Made by a program: the position numbers and the translations under genes
DNA from: Clostridia bacterium
Lineage (GTDB): Bacteria; Bacillota; Clostridia; Oscillospirales; Acutalibacteraceae
Assembly (NCBI GenBank): GCA_017473435.1
Contig: JAFULG010000024.1
Span: forward strand, 1 to 32,290
Reading direction: 5' to 3'
Length of the DNA stretch: 32,290 nucleotides
The notes under the pieces: generated by a model
Databases searched by the model: none
The model's input: only the letters and a program-made list of their open reading frames with translations
Told to the model about the DNA's origin: nothing
Shown: piece after piece, positions 1,351 to 16,784 of the stretch
Layout of the letters: every line of letters begins with the position of its first letter
How positions within the stretch are numbered: the first letter of the stretch is position 1

Positions 1351-1374
1351 ACACCGCCTTTTTCAAGACGGTGT
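1351..1374. terminator. Hairpin ACACCG…CGGTGT past the symporter gene
   Basis: Arms ACACCG (1351-1356) and CGGTGT (1369-1374) pair, with an inner CTT/AAG extension. It lies about 70 bp past the stop of the minus-strand symporter gene, next to the palindromic repeat at 1376-1437. The flanking T run is weak on either strand, so a terminator role is uncertain. Confidence 0.35.
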
Positions 1375-1375
1375 A

Positions 1376-1437
1376 ATTGTTTTATCGCTCGCCGCGGGGC
1401 GTTACTTTTTTTGTAAAAAAAGTAACCAAAAAACTTT
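1376..1437. repeat. Dispersed palindromic repeat, half-length copy C
   Basis: This stretch holds TTTATCGCTCG, a GC-rich link, then a perfect 12-bp stem (GTTAC plus T7 at 1401-1412; A7 plus GTAAC at 1415-1426) and an end block AACCAAAAAACTTT. The order and sequence match the right half of the fuller copy at 6893-7070. The outer end lies only 5 bp from the stop codon of the minus-strand symporter gene, the same placement as the other two copies. The left half is missing or replaced. Confidence 0.75.
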
Positions 1438-1442
1438 AAATT

Positions 1443-2993
1443 TTACTGTTTCCCTACTGCCTTTGCAATTTCATCAAGGCTCTGCTGTCTTCTTTCCTCA
1501 AGCGCCTTTGTAATCTCCTTATGCTTCTTACCCGAAAGCTTGTAGAAAAACATCGGAATAATAGATAATACCGAGAAAGCTGCAGGGAAAATCGCAAACA
1601 TATAAATAAGGCTCTTTTTAGCCTCTATCGGCATAAGCTCGGGAGTGTCCGCAAACTTTGTGTAGCCGATGTAAACGAGGAAAAGGTTAGTCATATATGT
1701 GGTGCAGTTGTTGATGATTCTCGAAAGTGTACCCTTGAGTGCGCTTACCGTAGCCTCATTTCTCTCACCGAAGGTATATTCACCGTAGTCGTAAACCGCC
1801 ATCTGAATAAGTCCGGGAATGGTGTTGTAGAAGCCCGTTGTAAGACCGTGAAGTGCATACCAGAAAACAACCACTATAAAAATATGCTGCGGAGTCCTCT
1901 CCTCATAGGGATAAACGGAAAAGAACATTGCAAAATAGCAGACTGCCGTGCCAACCCTCATACCAATGTAAAGAATTTTGTCATCCACCCATCTGCGGAT
2001 AATAGGGGCAAGAAAAAGTGAAATACCCGTTGTTACAAATGAGGCAAGGGATGCAACGGAAAGAAGTGCCGCATAGTTGCCGTCAGTATAGTTGTAGGTA
2101 AACTCTATCGGAGTACCTTCAAATAAGGTAATATGGAAGGTTTCCGTTCTGAAGCAGGCTATGAAGGCATAGGTCATAAGGCTGTAGCCTATGCCGAAGC
2201 CGATGCCGAGAATTTCGGAAATCATATAAAGGAGAAGAGGCTTGTTTTTGATAATCTTACCGTAAACCTCACGGAGCTTCGGTGTTTCAACAACGGGAGG
2301 CTCTGCAATTCTCTCCTTAGTAACAACAATGTTCCAGAAGGCAAGAGGAATTGAGGCAACAACCACAAAGCTGTAGCTGTAGAAGTATCTCTCTGCCTCG
2401 GAAAGATTCGGCAGGAGCATAGGAAGGAAAGCGGCAATGTATGTACCCGTTGAGCCGATAGCTGAGCCGAGGATACTGTCCATTGCGGCAATATAGCCAC
2501 GCTCAAGATTGTTCGTAGTTCTTCTTGCATTAAGTGCGGTAAGTGCCGCATTGTAGAAGGTACTGAAGGCATCGTTAAGGAAATAAAGGCTTACAAGCCA
2601 GATAACCTTGAAGGTGTCACCCGCCTCGGGGAAGAACTGCTTAATCGGCAGGGTCTGCAGAATAAGCACAAGATTAAAGGGCACGAGCATCATCATTATC
2701 CACGGCTTGAAGCGTCCCCATTGACCGAAGCTTCTGCGACTTTTATCAAGAAAGCTCGACACGATAACGTCGTTTGCAATATCCCAGAAGCCGAGAACAA
2801 ATATAATCGTGCTGTAGGTTGCAAAAGCGCCCTCGCTCAGTCCCAGGAAGGTTGATGCAACAAGAGCTCCGAAGAAGCCCGACATTGCACTGTAAACCCT
2901 TGATACAGCCGTACTTGAACCGTAGGCAACATATTCCTTGACGGTAATTTTTTCGTTAACGTCTGTTGCGATATTATTCTTAATCTTAATCAC
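1443..2993 (-). CDS. GPH/MFS-family sugar:cation symporter (516 aa from GTG)
   Basis: A polytopic membrane protein of about 12 hydrophobic helices resembling the glycoside-pentoside-hexuronide (MelB-type, MFS_2) symporters. The N-terminal helix pair is followed by an F-W-D-I-A-N-D stretch with a nearby R-R-S-F-G-Q-W-G-R-F-K-P-W loop, the hallmark aspartates and the short Arg-rich loop of that family. The substrate cannot be read from sequence. The longest frame begins with an ATG at 3026, but that has no Shine-Dalgarno and overlaps the upstream lipoprotein gene; a GTG at 2993 (M-I-K-I-K-N-N) is preceded by GGAAGG and starts 11 bp after the lipoprotein stop, so I prefer it. It is probably cotranscribed with the lipoprotein gene. 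The C-terminus is a charged cytosolic tail. Confidence 0.85.
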   Translation of the reverse strand: MIKIKNNIATDVNEKITVKEYVAYGSSTAVSRVYSAMSGFFGALVASTFLGLSEGAFATYSTIIFVLGFWDIANDVIVSSFLDKSRRSFGQWGRFKPWIMMMLVPFNLVLILQTLPIKQFFPEAGDTFKVIWLVSLYFLNDAFSTFYNAALTALNARRTTNNLERGYIAAMDSILGSAIGSTGTYIAAFLPMLLPNLSEAERYFYSYSFVVVASIPLAFWNIVVTKERIAEPPVVETPKLREVYGKIIKNKPLLLYMISEILGIGFGIGYSLMTYAFIACFRTETFHITLFEGTPIEFTYNYTDGNYAALLSVASLASFVTTGISLFLAPIIRRWVDDKILYIGMRVGTAVCYFAMFFSVYPYEERTPQHIFIVVVFWYALHGLTTGFYNTIPGLIQMAVYDYGEYTFGERNEATVSALKGTLSRIINNCTTYMTNLFLVYIGYTKFADTPELMPIEAKKSLIYMFAIFPAAFSVLSIIPMFFYKLSGKKHKEITKALEERRQQSLDEIAKAVGKQ

Positions 2994-3004
2994 AATGCCA
3001 CCGT

Positions 3005-3685
3005 TTAACCTTCCGTTCCGTTCCATTTATAGGGAGGGTAAAGATTGACTTTGAAATAATTATCAATCACCCATCTGCCGTTTTCGTAAACAAAATCTAC
3101 GCTCTCGGTATTATATCTGTAGGGATCCTCATCAGCTGAAACCATATTACTGAAATCACTTTTCAGCGTAATATTGAAGCTTACACGGTCCTCACCCTCA
3201 GAAACAAGCTCAGCCTTTGTTTCGTCCAATATGTTTGTAGGCATCGCATCTCCGGCTACAAAGCAATGATGGTAAAGCTTACCGTCCTTTTCAACGTAAA
3301 CGCCCTCAATAAGGCTGTCGATAAGAGCCTCGGAGAAATATCCGCTCAGGTGCTTTTTAAGCGCCCCTTTGGAGTTGATTGTTTCGTGGTTTATTCTGTA
3401 ATAAAAGTCATATTCGTTATCCCCGGTAAAAAAGTCCGACCTGTCCCAATAATCGTTATAAAAGGTCAGCCATATTTTAGCCTCGGTATAAGCCTTATTA
3501 AAGCTATTGGCGGCTTCCTGAGCTGTCAGCTCCGGTTTAGCCTTTGTTGTAGGCTCAGTTGAGGTTATTTCTGTTATAGGTTCGGTTGTGCTCTGACTTA
3601 CATCCGAGTTCTCGTTATTACTTGCACAAGCGACAAGAGCAACGAGCATAAGACAAGTAAAAAGCAACACAGTGATTTTTTTCAT
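3005..3685 (-). CDS. Lipoprotein, NTF2/IseA-like domain possible (226 aa)
   Basis: The N-terminus is a lipoprotein signal: M-K-K, a hydrophobic core and the lipobox L-V-A-C with the lipidated Cys at residue 20. A Ser/Thr/Glu-rich linker (about 22-50) leads to a globular domain of about 170 residues. That domain has the look of small extracytoplasmic domains annotated in Clostridia as NTF2-like or IseA-type DL-endopeptidase inhibitors (F-N-K-A-Y-T-E-A, L-K-K-H-L-S-G-Y-F, the ending N-G-R-W-V-I-D-N-Y), but I cannot separate these. It probably sits outside on the membrane. It has a good promoter at 3718-3747 and is followed after 11 bp by the symporter gene, so the two may be an operon. A functional link is not obvious. 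Confidence 0.7.
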   Translation of the reverse strand: MKKITVLLFTCLMLVALVACASNNENSDVSQSTTEPITEITSTEPTTKAKPELTAQEAANSFNKAYTEAKIWLTFYNDYWDRSDFFTGDNEYDFYYRINHETINSKGALKKHLSGYFSEALIDSLIEGVYVEKDGKLYHHCFVAGDAMPTNILDETKAELVSEGEDRVSFNITLKSDFSNMVSADEDPYRYNTESVDFVYENGRWVIDNYFKVNLYPPYKWNGTEG

Positions 3686-6583: not shown

Positions 6584-6880
6584 ATGATAAAGCATATGAT
6601 AATCTGGAAGATAAAAGACGATTGCGAAAGCAAGGAGCTTGTAAAGGAAAATGTAAAAAGAGAGCTTGAGGCCCTCAAAGGTAAAATTGAAGGTCTTCTT
6701 GAAATGCACATCATTACTGATGCCCTCCCCTCCTCTGCAGGTGATCTTATGATGGACTCACTTTTTGAAAGTGAGGAAGCTCTCAAGGCTTATCAGAAGC
6801 ATTCACTTCATCAGCACGTGGCAAACACCTTTGTAAGACCGAATATGTGTCAGAGGCTGTCGCTGGATTATGAGATATGA
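6584..6880 (+). CDS. Dabb-family (stress-responsive alpha/beta barrel) protein, 98 aa
   Basis: This 98-residue protein fits the dimeric Dabb ferredoxin-like fold: start M-I-K-H-M-I-I-W-K-I-K, a middle Leu/Glu-rich helix (E-L-E-A-L-K-G-K-I-E-G-L-L), then D-L-M-M-D-S-L-F-E-S-E-E-A-L-K-A-Y-Q-K-H and H-Q-H-V-A-N-T-F-V-R-P. The opening K-H-x-I/V-x-W and the Y-x-x-H-x-x-H pattern are typical of the family. Most Dabb proteins have no assigned function; some are cyclases or heme-related enzymes. It is a lone gene with a start preceded by AAAGGCGG. It is read divergently from the feo operon and convergently towards the secreted protein at 7085-9184, with a palindromic repeat in between. Confidence 0.82.
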   Translation: MIKHMIIWKIKDDCESKELVKENVKRELEALKGKIEGLLEMHIITDALPSSAGDLMMDSLFESEEALKAYQKHSLHQHVANTFVRPNMCQRLSLDYEI

Positions 6881-6892
6881 GAGTAAAAAAGA

Positions 6893-7070
6893 AAAGTTCT
6901 TATGGTTACTTTTTTCAAGAAAAGTAACACCCGACCGGCGAGGTCATAAAATATTTTTTCACTAAAAGCTAAGGTCACGGAAATGAAAAACCGTGACCTT
7001 TTGTTGTTTTTGTTATATTTATCGCTCGGCGCGTGCCGTTCTTTCTTGTAAGAAAGAACCAAAGAACTTT
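6893..7070. repeat. Dispersed palindromic repeat, full copy A (about 178 bp)
   Basis: The element starts with AAAGTTCTT and ends with AAGAACTTT, so it has inverted ends. Inside are, in order: a GTTACTTTT/AAAAGTAAC stem (6905-6928), the motif CCCGACCGGCGAGGTC (6930-6945), a perfect 10-bp stem AAGGTCACGG/CCGTGACCTT (6971-7000) followed by T-rich sequence, TTTATCGCTCGGCGC, and a perfect 10-bp stem GTTCTTTCTT/AAGAAAGAAC (7038-7059). It fills the gap between two convergent genes. The copy at 15593-15757 is the same element in the opposite orientation, and 1376-1437 is a half copy. It has no ORF. It could be a MITE-like or BIME-like element that works as a two-way terminator. Confidence 0.85.
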
Positions 7071-7084
7071 ACTTGTCTTTTTAA

Positions 7085-9184
7085 TCACACCATTTTTGCC
7101 CTGAACCTTATCTCATTATAAGGGCCTAAAACATATCCGCCGTCGACCTTTTTATATGCCCTTACGGCAAAAGTATAATAAACACCGTAAGTAAGGTTTG
7201 AAAGCTGGACTCCGCTGTCCGTCGCTTTATAATTTCCGAGCTTCTGATAGCCGGTATTGTCACTTCTGAAATAAACAGCATAGCCTTCAGCGCCGTCAAC
7301 CTTTGTCCATCTGATTTTTGCTCCGAGATTTTTAACATCAGTTGCGCTGATTTTTGGTGCAGCCGGAAGAGTTGCTGTTCTGATTTCTCTGTAATCGCCC
7401 CAGACAGTACCTACAGATGTTACTGTAAAAGGTCTTACCGCCATAATAAAGGTTCTTCCGTTGCCGAGATTATTATAAGTAACCTGCGTTTCCTTTAATG
7501 TCGTAACCTCTCTCCAGCCTGAAGCTGTCTTATTATATATTCTGTATCCGTCTGCATTTTTTACCGCCGGCCACTGAAGCTTTATCGACGAAAGCGTAGT
7601 CGTCGCTGTCACCTTTGAGGGCGGAAGAGTCTTTGTTGCCGCGGTAAGTTCCGTGTAAGTAGCTGCCCAGGTTACCTTTTGTCCCGATACGCTGTAGGCT
7701 CTTATTGCAAAGCCATAGGTGTTACCTGCAGTAAGACCCGAAACCGTGTATGTTGTTTTTGTCGCAGAACCCAGAGACTGCCAGGCAGTTCCGTTTTTCT
7801 TAAAAATTCTGTAACCTGTTGCACCGGGCACAGCCGTCCAGGTAAGAGCTATTGAATTACGTGTCGAGGCTTGTGTAACCTTTGCCGTTCTTCCCAGCTC
7901 ACCTTTTTTGCTTACGGTAAAATGCACCGTATTTCCGACAGTTTTTGAAAAAGCATTTTTAGAAATTATCTTTATTGAATAATTACCGGGGTCAAGCGAA
8001 ACCTTTCCCGAGGTAACCGTCATATTGCGGTAAGCCCTGAAAAGCTTTCCGCCCGAATATATTTCCGCATCAAAGCTTGTGGTGTATTTACCCTTCGTCC
8101 AGGAAAGCGTAACCGAGCCCACACCGCCCTGAGCTTTTATCACTGAAACCTCGGGAGGCTGTTCCTTTTTCAGGGTAAACAGCTTACCGTCAGAAGCGGC
8201 TTTGTAAGCCGAGGTGATATTCACATCGCTCTGCACCGTAAGAACTCCCGTACCGCTTTCATTTGAAAGGTAAAGCTTTGTACCTGAGCCGTAAAAAGAC
8301 CAGAGCTGATTTTTTAAATTCGCCTGAACGGCAACGGAAACCTTATTATCCGCTCCGAGAGCAAGAGCCTTTGAGTCAGCACAGCTTACAATTTTATATG
8401 AGCCGTCAGACTGTCTCGTAAAGCTCCACACCTGGTAGGCGTTAGCGCTGTACGCCTTCATTACAGCTTTTCCGTTTTCATTCGTAAGAGCCTTTCCCGT
8501 TTTTGTGTTGACGATTGCTCCGTAAAAGCTGTTACCCTGATTTGATTTAACTTCAATATTTTTCCAGTTTGTATCAGCAGAAATCTTATCGTAGTTGCTT
8601 GCGCGGACATAATAGTCAATATCCGCAATATACAGCTCTCTGCCCCAGCTGATTTCACAGTTTCCCTTACCGTTTTCATCACCAACATTACATTCAACAA
8701 CGGTACACTTTAATCCGCTGACGGAAAGCACAACCGCCGAATGAGTATCATTTTTGATACGTATAAGGTCACCGGGCTTAATATCCCAAAGTCTTTTATC
8801 CGTCTCGCTGAGTGTAGATGCCCTCTCACCGAAAATTTTGTAAAAGAGCATAGACGCAAAGCCGTGACACTGATAACCGCTGTCAAAATAATTACAGTCC
8901 CAGCCACCGACAGGCGTTGTTGTATCATGGTCGGAGCAAGGAGTTTTTGTAACGCTGTAAGCATACTTTTCATCCAATTTATTAAGTATGCTTTCGAGCT
9001 TATCGGAATTTGATTTTACCTGATGATTCCAGTAATAACCGTCAGGAAAATCCCTTTTCAGCTTTTCAAGACGCATTTCAATTCCGTTTGCCGCAAAGCT
9101 GTCAAAGGAGGTAAGCGGAGCTGCTGTAAGCAGGATAACTGCAACAAGAAAAGCAGATATTAACTTTTTAAGGATAAGCTTCAT
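7085..9184 (-). CDS. Secreted CHAP/amidase-like protein with lectin-like and FN3 domains (699 aa)
   Basis: A Sec signal peptide (residues 1 to about 32, cleavage near S-F-A-A) is followed by a papain-like domain (about 35-200). It has a putative catalytic Cys in G-Y-Q-C-H-G-F-A (C106), a His in N-D-T-H-S-A-V-V (H148) and the C-terminal V-E-C-N strand, with I-K-P-G-D-L-I-R in between. This pattern is CHAP/NlpC-like, so peptidoglycan or peptide cleavage is likely but unproven. Residues about 210-345 hold repeats around Q-V-W-S-F and N-Q-L-W-S-F, as in ricin-type beta-trefoil lectins. From about 347 to the end lie an immunoglobulin-like and three FN3 modules, each with A-x-G-Y-x-I/V. There is no sorting signal. 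It lies downstream of a structured spacer and has no clear promoter. Confidence 0.8.
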   Translation of the reverse strand: MKLILKKLISAFLVAVILLTAAPLTSFDSFAANGIEMRLEKLKRDFPDGYYWNHQVKSNSDKLESILNKLDEKYAYSVTKTPCSDHDTTTPVGGWDCNYFDSGYQCHGFASMLFYKIFGERASTLSETDKRLWDIKPGDLIRIKNDTHSAVVLSVSGLKCTVVECNVGDENGKGNCEISWGRELYIADIDYYVRASNYDKISADTNWKNIEVKSNQGNSFYGAIVNTKTGKALTNENGKAVMKAYSANAYQVWSFTRQSDGSYKIVSCADSKALALGADNKVSVAVQANLKNQLWSFYGSGTKLYLSNESGTGVLTVQSDVNITSAYKAASDGKLFTLKKEQPPEVSVIKAQGGVGSVTLSWTKGKYTTSFDAEIYSGGKLFRAYRNMTVTSGKVSLDPGNYSIKIISKNAFSKTVGNTVHFTVSKKGELGRTAKVTQASTRNSIALTWTAVPGATGYRIFKKNGTAWQSLGSATKTTYTVSGLTAGNTYGFAIRAYSVSGQKVTWAATYTELTAATKTLPPSKVTATTTLSSIKLQWPAVKNADGYRIYNKTASGWREVTTLKETQVTYNNLGNGRTFIMAVRPFTVTSVGTVWGDYREIRTATLPAAPKISATDVKNLGAKIRWTKVDGAEGYAVYFRSDNTGYQKLGNYKATDSGVQLSNLTYGVYYTFAVRAYKKVDGGYVLGPYNEIRFRAKMV

Positions 9185-14580: not shown

Positions 14581-15594
14581 ATGAACAACACAGAAACCAC
14601 ACCCTTCGTTACGGAAGCTTCACTTTTAAAAAGAGTACAGGTATTCCTCGAGGACGGCGAATTTGACCGTGCCGACGAATACTGCGAAAGAGTGCTCGAT
14701 ATGAACGTTGAAAACGGCGAGGCTTATCTTTATAAGCTTCTCGCCTCGCTCAGGCTTACAAAAAAGCAGGAGCTTTCAGACCTTAATGAGCCCTTTGACA
14801 GTGAAGCGTCCTATGCAAAAATTATGCGCTACGGCAATGCACAGCTGAAAAAAGAGATTGCAGACATAAACGCTTCTATTATCGCAAGGCTTGAAGAAGC
14901 CGAAAAAAAAGCTATGCTTGAAAAAGGCTTACAGCTTGCAGAAGATGACAGCGTTGCTTCCCTCGCTGAGGCTTACCGTATTTTTACCCGTGCTGATAAC
15001 ACTGAAAAAGCAGAGGAATGCAAGGCTAAAATTGAACAGCTTTACGATGAAAACTATAACCGTCTGTTTATGCTCGCAAAGGAAAAAGAGCAGGCAATAA
15101 ACGACCTTAAGTATCAGAACAGCACAGACCTTGCCGAAAGGGAGGACTATGACCGGTACATAAAGGAAAACCACGGCAAAAAGGTATTTGATTACTCCCT
15201 GCTTGTTGCAATATGTGTGTGCATCACCTGCATTGTGCTTGCCGCTGTAAACGTACGCAACTTTTTCCTTGCAACGGAGCTTTCGCTTAAAACAGCCGCT
15301 CTCTGCTTCTTCACACGTATTCTCCCCGCCTTCCCCATCACCTGGGTCAGCACGGTTTTAAGCTTTATTATTTCAAAGAAAATTGTTAAAAAGCAAAAGA
15401 AAAACCTGCTCGAGGATATCGGCACGGCGGCTGACCGAGCAAGAGAAATCGCGGGCAAGGTCGGCAGAGCAGAAAGCGAAACCCTTATGCTTCAGAAGGA
15501 GCTTGACGAGGCGCTTGAAGCGCTCCGTAAGCTTAATGCGGAGTATGATGTTTTTCTTGCAGAAAAGGAAAAAGAGAACATTTCACAAGCTTAA
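14581..15594 (+). CDS. TPR/coiled-coil membrane protein of unknown function (337 aa)
   Basis: I do not recognise a named family. The N-terminal ~60 residues look like a TPR-type helix pair (R-V-Q-V-F-L-E-D-G-E-F-D-R-A-D-E-Y-C-E-R-V-L-D). A second TPR-like helix pair with A-Y-R-I-F-T-R-A-D-N-T-E-K-A-E-E-C-K lies around 130-150. Charged, helical sequence leads to two membrane helices (about 203-225 and 240-270), then a basic stop and a coiled coil to the end. Similar tandem TPR plus membrane proteins occur in gut Clostridia, often with a zinc ribbon that is absent here. Start has AGAGG upstream. It follows the IolB-like gene by 23 bp, and its stop codon lies within the first bases of the repeat at 15593-15757. 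Confidence 0.7.
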   Translation: MNNTETTPFVTEASLLKRVQVFLEDGEFDRADEYCERVLDMNVENGEAYLYKLLASLRLTKKQELSDLNEPFDSEASYAKIMRYGNAQLKKEIADINASIIARLEEAEKKAMLEKGLQLAEDDSVASLAEAYRIFTRADNTEKAEECKAKIEQLYDENYNRLFMLAKEKEQAINDLKYQNSTDLAEREDYDRYIKENHGKKVFDYSLLVAICVCITCIVLAAVNVRNFFLATELSLKTAALCFFTRILPAFPITWVSTVLSFIISKKIVKKQKKNLLEDIGTAADRAREIAGKVGRAESETLMLQKELDEALEALRKLNAEYDVFLAEKEKENISQA

Positions 15595-15757
15595 AGTTCT
15601 TTACAAGAAAGAACGGCTTGCGCCGAGCAATAAAAACAATAAAATACGTTAAAAGGTCACGGTTTTCCGTGACCTTTACTTTTGAGTGACATCTGTTTCG
15701 CGACCTCGCCGGTCGGGCGTTACTTTTCTTGTAAGAAAAGTAACACAAAAGAACTTT
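15593..15757. repeat. Dispersed palindromic repeat, copy B (165 bp, inverted relative to copy A)
   Basis: Its reverse complement follows the copy at 6893-7070 block by block: AAAGTTCTT end, GTTACTTTT/AAAAGTAAC stem (15719-15744), CCCGACCGGCGAGGTC, AAGGTCACGG stem with TTTT loop (15653-15676), GCTCGGCGC and the GTTCTTTCTTGTAA end. The left end has lost about nine bases of its stem. It begins on the last bases of the stop codon at 15594 and ends 11 bp before the stop of the convergent reductase gene. Confidence 0.88.
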
Positions 15758-15767
15758 GCTTATTTAA

Positions 15768-16784
15768 TTACAGCAGCTCATCAAAATACTTTATATTAGC
15801 TTTCTCCGCCTTGAGCTTGCCTTCCTGAATTTTCTTGATAATCTCAACGATTCTGTCATTGATAGGTGTGGGCACACCGTACTTTCTGCCGAATTCACAT
15901 ACAACGCCGTTGATTGCATCAACCTCGCAGGGCTTGCCCTTCTTGAGGTCCTGAAGCATTGAAGGCTCAATAAGCCTGTGCTTTTTCATCGCAACAGGAA
16001 GAAGTAATGTGCCGAAGGTACGCTTCAATGCGCCCTTATAATAGAACAGACCTACAATGTTCTTGCCCTGAACGGGAGCAAACTCTGTACCCGAAGCGTG
16101 ACCTACATCTATGCACTCCTTCATACAGCGGATTGCAACCTTCTGAGCAGCCTTATCCTCGGAAACGTCACCGAAAACACCGCCCACTACAGTACCGAGA
16201 CCTGAGAAGGTAGCGTTGATGAGAAGCTTTGACCAACGTGCGCCCATAAGGTTTGTTTCCTCGTGTACGGGACACATATATTCAAGGAGCTTTTTAACGG
16301 TGTTGAACTGCTCGTCGGTGATACCCTTCATCTTGCCCATATGGAAGGAAAGGCTGTCCTTTTCACTTGTAAGCTCGCAAACACCGGGCTCGATAAGTGC
16401 TGCGCCCCATTCAACTGCACAGCCCATTGTGTGGTCCTCACCGATAATTTCGGCAATACCCGGCTCGGGAATACCGTTCTGAAGTGTTACAATAACACCC
16501 TTTTCTGAAAGGAAAGGCTTGAGGAAGGTAACAACATCCTTATTGAAAAGCTGTTTTGTAAGAAGGATGATAACGTCATATTCGCCTGACATTTCATCGG
16601 GAGTGATAGCTTTTACAGGAACGGTCATTTCAACTGTGCCAGTAATTTTTGCACCCTTTTCGTTAAGTGCGGCAACATGAGACTTATTGCGGTTAACAAG
16701 CTCAACCTCACCACCGTTTTTTGTAATGAAGGCACCGAGCACCGTACCGAGGGAGCCTGCACCGTAGATTGCATATTTGCCCAT
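15768..16784 (-). CDS. 2-dehydropantoate 2-reductase family (ApbA/PanE) protein, 338 aa
   Basis: The Rossmann motif Y-G-A-G-S-L-G-T (7-14) binds NADPH, and the family segment A-R-W-S-K-L-L-I-N-A-T (K186, N190) carries the catalytic Lys and Asn. The substrate-helix motif C-E-V-D-A-I-N-G-V-V-C-E-F-G-R-K-Y-G-V-P-T-P-I-N-D is near the C-terminus. The prototype, PanE, reduces ketopantoate to pantoate in coenzyme A synthesis. At 338 residues it is longer than typical PanE (about 300) and many paralogues act on other 2-oxo acids, so panE is not assigned. No panB or panC is nearby. The start has AAGGAGAG at a good distance and the promoter is at 16823-16851. Confidence 0.85.
   Translation of the reverse strand: MGKYAIYGAGSLGTVLGAFITKNGGEVELVNRNKSHVAALNEKGAKITGTVEMTVPVKAITPDEMSGEYDVIILLTKQLFNKDVVTFLKPFLSEKGVIVTLQNGIPEPGIAEIIGEDHTMGCAVEWGAALIEPGVCELTSEKDSLSFHMGKMKGITDEQFNTVKKLLEYMCPVHEETNLMGARWSKLLINATFSGLGTVVGGVFGDVSEDKAAQKVAIRCMKECIDVGHASGTEFAPVQGKNIVGLFYYKGALKRTFGTLLLPVAMKKHRLIEPSMLQDLKKGKPCEVDAINGVVCEFGRKYGVPTPINDRIVEIIKKIQEGKLKAEKANIKYFDELL

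Follow-up and report, generated by a model that had tools for sequence, protein, structure and literature searches.

A high-copy folded repeat at gene 3′ ends of a Clostridia bacterium, with a covariation-supported pseudoknot and a candidate intrastrand triplex

The window considered here, a stretch of 32,290 nucleotides that corresponds to contig C8 in the genome of a gut-type Clostridia bacterium (the host; 2.56 Mb in 91 contigs), carries two long copies of a palindromic repeat, copy 1 at 6893-7070 and, in inverted order, copy 2 at 15593-15757. The question raised by this locus is what kind of element sits there, next to the ends of genes, and what it may do in that position. The initial annotation described a modular family of structured repeats, possibly a mobile element used as a two-way transcription stop, and all the sequence blocks that it named were found in both long copies at the places indicated. 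The analysis reveals a short folded repeat with well over 100 copies in the genome, whose repeating unit is a polar half element, some 50 nt long, in which a pyrimidine box is followed by a hairpin (stem 1) and by a GC-rich core. The interpretation that we prefer, with a confidence that falls somewhat short of even, is that of a high-copy family similar to the repetitive extragenic palindromes (REPs), whose fold would act in the 3′ untranslated region (UTR) of mRNA and slow down 3′-to-5′ decay. The parts of the element change in step across species, which suggests a working structure, probably of RNA, and not a random repeat. Genomes of relatives, host contigs and individual loci are designated below with the letters G, C and L, respectively.

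The half element and its copies

The 178-nt copy 1 consists of two facing halves with a terminator-like hairpin between them, and the long copies have inverted ends because two polar halves face each other. In the host genome, the core sides of the halves face each other in 16/16 neighbour pairs located no more than 250 nt apart, while many of the sites in the 30 printed loci hold a single half followed by another hairpin. So, concerning the long modular unit first described, the repetition is real, the unit is the half, and the central hairpin is one of several recurring hairpins. The central AAGGTCACGG hairpin was also considered as a part of the repeat itself and was ruled out, with 93 distinct arm strings at 99 sites. 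Forty-six halves were extracted from the host genome, and 45 of them were aligned. Their common anatomy comprises a box such as AAAGTTCTTTG, a stem 1 that measures roughly 9-12 bp and whose loop is, for example, TACA or TTCA, and the GC core.

A BLAST search of the host genome with the sequence 6893-7070 returned at least 52 matches (40 of 141 candidates scored), and the covariance model R1 at least 148 matches at E ≤ 1 (150 of 2888 candidates scored). The 137 host halves scoring at least 36.8 bits were taken as the working set. More halves were found in relatives, and neither an absence of further copies nor a random placement was seen. At E ≤ 0.01, R1 gave matches in 18 of the 30 genomes searched, those of the host and of 29 relatives, with 146 copies in the host and 0-70 in the 18 relatives of the same genus, among which G015 had the most (70 copies) and G004, G011, G014 and G017 had none. 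The counts depend on the threshold: in eight genomes searched again at E ≤ 1e-4, G015 retained 53 copies and G006 and G007 had 17 each, and the same change of threshold lowered the counts from 42 to 11 in G003 and from 13 to 0 in G009. In a class-wide draw with R1, run with stricter filters at E ≤ 1e-4, matches occurred in 6/391 genomes, the host included, and no core of the host type was seen by eye in the printed loci of the other five.

Rfam 15 returned no family at its cut-off on the window, and 23 matches at E ≤ 10, all below the cut-off, on eight element loci. The Skipping-rope RNA, considered as a possible match and rejected, was absent from the latter list, and the literature search for it gave one unrelated paper. 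The family was named in no title or abstract opening found by the literature searches for a prior description. A phage source was also considered and set aside, as a pattern scan of viral contigs gave three stretches that by eye lacked box and stem. One match to the box-and-stem pattern occurred outside Clostridia, in an Ignavibacteria genome (L200).

Pseudoknot core and candidate third strand

The core reads GCC N CGC GGC GA GCG or GCC N GACC GGC GA GGTC, so that a helix s1 (GCC/GGC) and a helix s2 (CGC or GACC with GCG or GGTC) interleave. As judged from the sequences, the core is a covariation-supported pseudoknot. The pairing was evaluated in 63 distinct cores of 206 elements picked by their box and stem and found with the anchor CGAG, a partly circular procedure in that the anchor fixes one base on each 3′ side of s1 and s2. 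Helix s2 was paired in 177/187 cells, compared to a mean of 133.4 and a maximum of 148 in 2000 shuffles of the 3′ sides, and helix s1 in 178/189 cells (shuffled mean 164.8, maximum 173). The paired types of s2 were CGC/GCG (19 cores), CCC/GGG (8), ACC/GGT (6), TGC/GCA (6), TCC/GGA (4), CAC/GTG (3) and AGC/GCT (1), besides others containing G-U, and those of s1 were GCC/GGC (46) and GGC/GCC (7). In the alignment of host halves, pairing was conserved in 99.3% of the cells of stem 1, 98.4% of those of s1 and 88.7% of those of s2, while 11 of the 19 pairs, 7 of the 12 pairs of stem 1 among them, had changed on both sides; such changes occupied 82 cells, compared to a shuffled mean of 28.8. The early remark that the stems stay paired was thus borne out by compensatory changes, for stem 1 and for the pseudoknot.

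By its sequence, the box corresponds in parallel to the purine arm of stem 1, as shown by the arm/box combinations AGAAAG/TCTTTG, AGAAAAG/TCTTTTG, AAAAAAG/TTTTTTG, AGAAAGG/TCTTTGG, AGAAAAAGG/TCTTTTTGG and GAGAAAAGG/CTCTTTTGG. Among 219 elements picked by their pseudoknot, 202 have a box that ends in the coded string. Counting distinct genome/tract/box combinations, the string was present in 49/64, whereas 2000 shuffles gave 16.9 on average and never more than 29. The three components of a triplex code, i.e. third strand, pyrimidine arm and purine arm, occur on one strand. Some copies without core from other families of the class also obey the code by eye (TTTCTTGG/AAAGAAGG in L172, TCTTTTTGG/AGAAAAAGG in L174).

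According to the class definitions given by Holder et al. 2015 (PMC4666352), the sense strand is, by its sequence, a class IV triplex of the pyrimidine motif, a kind which the same paper describes as found also in RNA. The polarity of the element, described below, places the strand with the pyrimidine motif in the transcript. Among the non-Watson-Crick cells of 146 distinct elements, G-U and C-A combinations in stem 1 numbered 8 versus 3. Energy folding of six sequences, with a method that scores neither triplexes nor pseudoknots, produced the stem 1 hairpin in all of them, with z-scores from -1.76 to -2.86.

Several observations weigh against a folded RNA of this design. Mismatched s2 types occur (CGC/GCA in 4 cores, AGC/GCG in 2), the outer pair of s2 is unpaired in 19/42 host rows, and the common ancestry of the copies inflates every shuffle test. 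In the pseudoknots of the 146 distinct elements, G-U and C-A numbered 7 versus 9, with 9 A-G in addition. Energy folding gave s1 in three of the six sequences, s2 in two and neither in one, and two type B halves folded with a nested GUUC-GAGC pairing of the box. Concerning the third strand, 17/219 boxes miss the code, and the test itself allows two bases, G or C, to face the final G of the arm, where a G makes a non-canonical parallel triplet. The length of the T-run equals that of the A-run in 60/84 combinations, another 15, all of them of all-A classes, being off by one. When the longest common string was evaluated in 88 combinations, the parallel code lay 12.7 standard deviations (sd) above shuffles, a direct repeat of the whole 5′ arm 9.0 sd and a direct repeat of the base of the 5′ arm 2.5 sd, so that the parallel code gives the best fit without being the sole relation above chance.

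A different arrangement was observed in G007, where a simple GTCC..GGAC hairpin replaces the pseudoknot after the box and hairpin (L074, L089, L227, L232, L282-L285). There, box and hairpin are part of a longer mosaic repeat, often near contig ends, of which 8 copies were printed from 13 loci.

Position at gene ends and the separate terminator

The host genes were called by open reading frame (ORF) and codon usage on 348 kb around the copies. Only 3 of the 137 host halves lie inside a called ORF, and one has no gene on its box side. Of the remaining 133, 121 have the box turned towards the 3′ end of a same-strand gene and 12 do not, and the distance from stop codon to box is 20 nt or less in 105/121. 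The pseudoknot filter retained 99 copies in the other genomes, of which 91 were outside called genes and 86 had a gene on the box side; the box faced a 3′ end in 81/86, not so in 5, and it lay no more than 20 nt from the stop codon in 74/81.

Considering the 123 host halves with genes on both sides, 76 are in convergent junctions, 35 in tandem ones and 12 in tandem ones with the element reversed, 6 of these 12 being the second half of a pair; none is in a divergent junction. The location at gene 3′ ends, often in convergent junctions, that had been noticed in the window thus extends to the genome. The abundance of convergent junctions, together with the terminator-like character of the central hairpin of the full copies on both strands, could be taken in favor of a two-way transcription terminator, the role that the initial annotation suggested for the element itself. 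Against this, 35 halves lie in tandem junctions, and in the printed loci the short GC core that closes the half on the sense strand lacks the T run which directly follows the hairpin of an intrinsic terminator. Furthermore, of 120 halves facing a 3′ end and with 100 nt of sequence downstream, 99 are followed within 130 nt by a separate terminator-like hairpin, defined by four or more GC pairs and by five or more T among the 8 nt after it, compared to 24/360 shuffles (three per half). This hairpin starts at a median of 16 nt past the core, and the 99 hairpins have 93 distinct pairs of arm strings, with recurring families such as AAGGTCACGG and ACACCG. Of the 25 hairpins printed, at least the one at C71:56879 probably belongs to the opposite half. 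As the hairpin that follows the half is separate and mostly distinct, the terminator seems to be the gene's own and the half an added module, and it is for this reason that we consider the two-way terminator very unlikely.

The same can be seen at gene ends that lack the element. No half was present within 170 nt from the stop codon at 13 gene ends of relatives, corresponding to an aldolase gene (8 loci fetched, 5 readable by script) and to a tryptophan synthase beta-like gene (10 loci fetched, 8 read, four of them only 70-72% identical and possibly paralogs), and 12/13 of these ends nevertheless show a terminator-like hairpin by eye. The relatives in question have 0 to 17 copies genome-wide. 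That these two genes end without the element in relatives counts, on the other hand, among the points unfavorable to a function of the element at gene ends. To these must be added the behavior of the lineages with box and stem but no core, studied in 20 copies with simpler gene calls: the box was within 20 nt of a same-strand stop codon in 0/20. In 12 copies it faced a 3′ end from a distance of at least 68 nt, in 7 it faced a 5′ end (7/19 of those with a gene on the box side), and one copy had no gene there. As none of these 20 copies without core is near a stop codon, placement at the stop codon goes with the pseudoknot.

The short distance from stop codon to box (median 8 nt, quartiles 5.5 and 13.5) is also what would be expected of a regulator of translation end, by analogy with the REPs of Escherichia coli, which, as described in PMC12306157, slow the ribosome and lower output when located 15 nt or less from a stop codon. 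A fold placed 8 nt past the stop codon could likewise slow termination or recycling. However, Watson-Crick pairing begins only about 11 nt into the box, and this explanation appears to us improbable.

Under the preferred reading, that of a fold acting in the 3′ UTR, the sense transcript would contain, in this order, the stop codon, about 8 nt, the box, stem 1, an H-type pseudoknot, about 16 nt and the intrinsic terminator. As a third strand in parallel orientation (U.A-U and C.G-C triplets), the box would occupy the deep groove of stem 1, and the pseudoknot would pack at the foot of that stem. Once the terminator end had been trimmed, the fold might block 3′-to-5′ decay of the mRNA; possibly, it might also slow the ribosome at the stop codon like the E. 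coli REPs.

The features of the window are summarized in Table 1. The solo half had been reported as 1376-1437; its presence was confirmed, with an extent of 1386-1437. Half 1L lies 12 nt past the stop codon of a + strand gene (6584-6880) and, as locus L001, is among the 17 boxes that miss the third-strand code. Half 1R, with the GGC/GCC variant of helix s1, faces a - strand gene ending at 7085, half 2R one ending at 15768, and the solo half is 5 nt from the stop codon of the - strand gene 1443-3026. Half 2L is degenerate. The nine-base loss noticed early in copy 2 is real, and it removed one of the two pyrimidine strands of this half: nothing is left of the sequence that separated box and 5′ arm, so that the box is now the arm and the third strand has disappeared. 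The core of half 2L has altered s1 and s2 helices that are still paired. The first two bases of this half, AA, are part of the stop codon of the gene 14581-15594, and the half is absent from the R1 matches. Apart from these elements, the window contains a 74-nt direct repeat (2-75 and 277-350, 97% identical), each copy of which spans the 3′ end of a - strand ORF (37-297 and 312-1004).

Table 1. Half elements and terminator-like hairpins of the window.
Feature	Position	Strand	Parts and remarks
Solo half, type B	1386-1437	-	box 1427-1437, stem 1 1401-1426, core 1386-1400
Terminator-like hairpin ACACCGCCTT..AAGACGGTGT	1351-1374		downstream of solo half
Half 1L, type A	6893-6945	+	box 6893-6904, stem 1 6905-6928, pseudoknot core 6929-6945
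Terminator-like hairpin AAGGTCACGG..CCGTGACCTT	6971-7000		between convergent genes; by eye
Half 1R, type B	7023-7070	-	box 7060-7070, stem 1 7038-7059, core 7023-7037
Half 2L, degenerate	15593-15629	+	remaining box/stem part 15593-15614, core 15615-15629
Terminator-like hairpin AAAGGTCACGG..CCGTGACCTTT	15652-15677		by eye
Half 2R, type A	15702-15757	-	box 15745-15757, stem 1 15719-15744, core 15702-15718

Retention, mobility and known systems

The main rival of the preferred reading is a precisely targeted mobile repeat, i.e. a selfish DNA repeat similar to REPINs or to miniature inverted-repeat transposable elements, the folded strand of which would be read by a transposase acting on single strands and inserted in a fixed orientation beside terminators. 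The structure would then be kept for recognition, the 3′ end of genes would be a place where insertion is tolerated, and the enzyme would perhaps be elsewhere or lost. This explanation agrees with the variation from 0 to 146 copies within one genus, with the 13 element-free gene ends of relatives, and with the inverted pairing of halves as in REPINs. It agrees also with the 13/121 host copies in which the AA of the box is shared with the stop codon (offset -2), as at window position 15593 and as would result from insertion at a gene end. Besides, the covariation fails to separate DNA from RNA.

Concerning the enzyme, Y1_Tnp matches were found in 18 of the 30 genomes. The copy-rich G015 and the host both have them (4 and 3, respectively), but so does G017 (3), which has 0 copies of the element, while they are absent from G003, with 42 copies at E ≤ 0.01, and from G007 and G018, with 17 and 14 copies. 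Over the host and the 18 relatives of its genus, the presence of Y1_Tnp did not track copy number. Half elements were found in 0/22 loci around Y1_Tnp matches (two of them overlapping), compared to 29/30 in the positive control, and a linkage to RAYT genes was sought in the host and the 29 relatives without being found. The matching transposase that the initial annotation suggested looking for was thus not found by these searches. Two host Y1_Tnp genes, at C62:15120-15461 (L032) and C45:10341-10669 (L031, L033), are one open to the contig end and the other broken by stop codons, and no half is present in the stretch around either of them.

Two other observations oppose the selfish repeat, namely the near-fixed polarity relative to the stop codon and the recurrence of the element at orthologous genes. 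Of 41 G015 entries with a box-facing ORF, 25 have an ortholog in the element-bearing stretches of the host (24/40 after removing one element, L242, that was entered twice), whereas these stretches make up about 14% of the genome, which is the share expected by chance. At 19 of the 25 orthologous sites there is a listed 3′-end element, and at the other 6, by eye, a variant, shifted or interrupted one. The 19 pairs have the same stem in 5 cases (0.8 at random) and the same s2 in 8 (5.9 at random). As far as the sequences indicate, sites are kept and subtypes turn over, either because copies recombine with one another or because the element has reached the same genes repeatedly. Because orthologous sites keep the element but swap subtypes, copies would spread or be refreshed between sites. 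Taking all this into account, the selfish repeat seems to us a doubtful explanation, though one to be kept in mind.

Other repeats occur near these sites. In the 348 kb of the host, another family of palindromes (AAGTTTTGG, e.g. in the 3′ flank of L021) has the hairpin TCAAGC..GCTTG, in many cases with a GC hairpin such as AAGGGGCAAAGCCCCTT after it. Of its 20 copies, 18 are no more than 14 nt past a same-strand stop codon, and in G015 (L081) it stands in for the pseudoknot element that is present in the host at the same site. A further repeat of about 110-130 nt, ending in GGGAACC[AG]CAAGAGG, occurs in host contigs C56, C57, C13, C6, C63 and C86; in 6/8 matches it adjoins stem 1 at the foot, before or after the hairpin.

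A stronger form of the preferred reading is that the element constitutes a bacterial cap for mRNA 3′ ends, made of an RNA triple helix and a pseudoknot, present at more than 100 genes and selected at orthologous ones. We advance it tentatively, as a possibility well below even chance. Such a cap could be compared, in kind, with the triplex elements by which some viral and eukaryotic RNAs protect their 3′ ends. RNA triplex elements include the ENE of the PAN and MALAT1 RNAs and the pseudoknot triplexes of telomerase and SAM-II, with a U.A-U third strand at or near the RNA 3′ end, or with the third strand placed 5′ of the pyrimidine arm. We know of no sequence in common between them and the half element, for which both topology and function are proposed by inference.

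Among repeats, those of closest known kind are the BoxC/PIT intrastrand-triplex repeats, followed by the REPs. In PMC4666352, BoxC/PIT/TM are described as potential intrastrand triplex repeats, devoid of promoter or terminator activity and with a proposed role in genome instability. The half elements resemble them in being short and intergenic, in numbering from tens to more than 100 per genome, in having a hairpin and a third strand on one strand, in occurring as solo and inverted-pair copies, and in varying strongly in number among close relatives. They differ in the AT-rich tract, the pyrimidine motif of the sense strand, the added pseudoknot (a word with 0 occurrences in the main text of that paper) and the strong polarity relative to the stop codon; tracts such as AGAAAG, AGAAAAG, AAAAAAG and similar ones depart from the GC-rich 9-nt TM-ECO consensus given there.

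With REP, BIME and REPIN sequences, as presented in PMC3733652 and PMC12306157, the element shares being a high-copy extragenic palindrome, solo or in inverted pairs, near stop codons in convergent and tandem junctions; its 137 halves, with 3 in an ORF, and 16 inverted pairs correspond to that description. Unlike those described in PMC3733652, the aligned halves show by eye no GTAG or CGTC tag at the hairpin foot, where there is a G of the box before and GCC or GGC after. Other differences are the two interleaved helices beside the hairpin, the strong polarity, and the lack of a link to a Y1 transposase in the searched loci, where such an enzyme may have been lost or may lie far away.

So, it can be said that the pseudoknot, the polarity relative to the stop codon and the AT-rich pyrimidine design set the half element apart from BoxC/PIT and REP repeats as described in the sources cited. 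If the fold acts in RNA, bacteria would have a portable 3′-UTR part built on a major-groove triplex, and relatives of the BoxC/PIT repeats would gain a testable function, for which the natural variants offer matched changes of third strand and pseudoknot suited to direct tests. If it is instead mobile DNA, it would be a repeat with an unusually exact target, the gap between stop codon and terminator.
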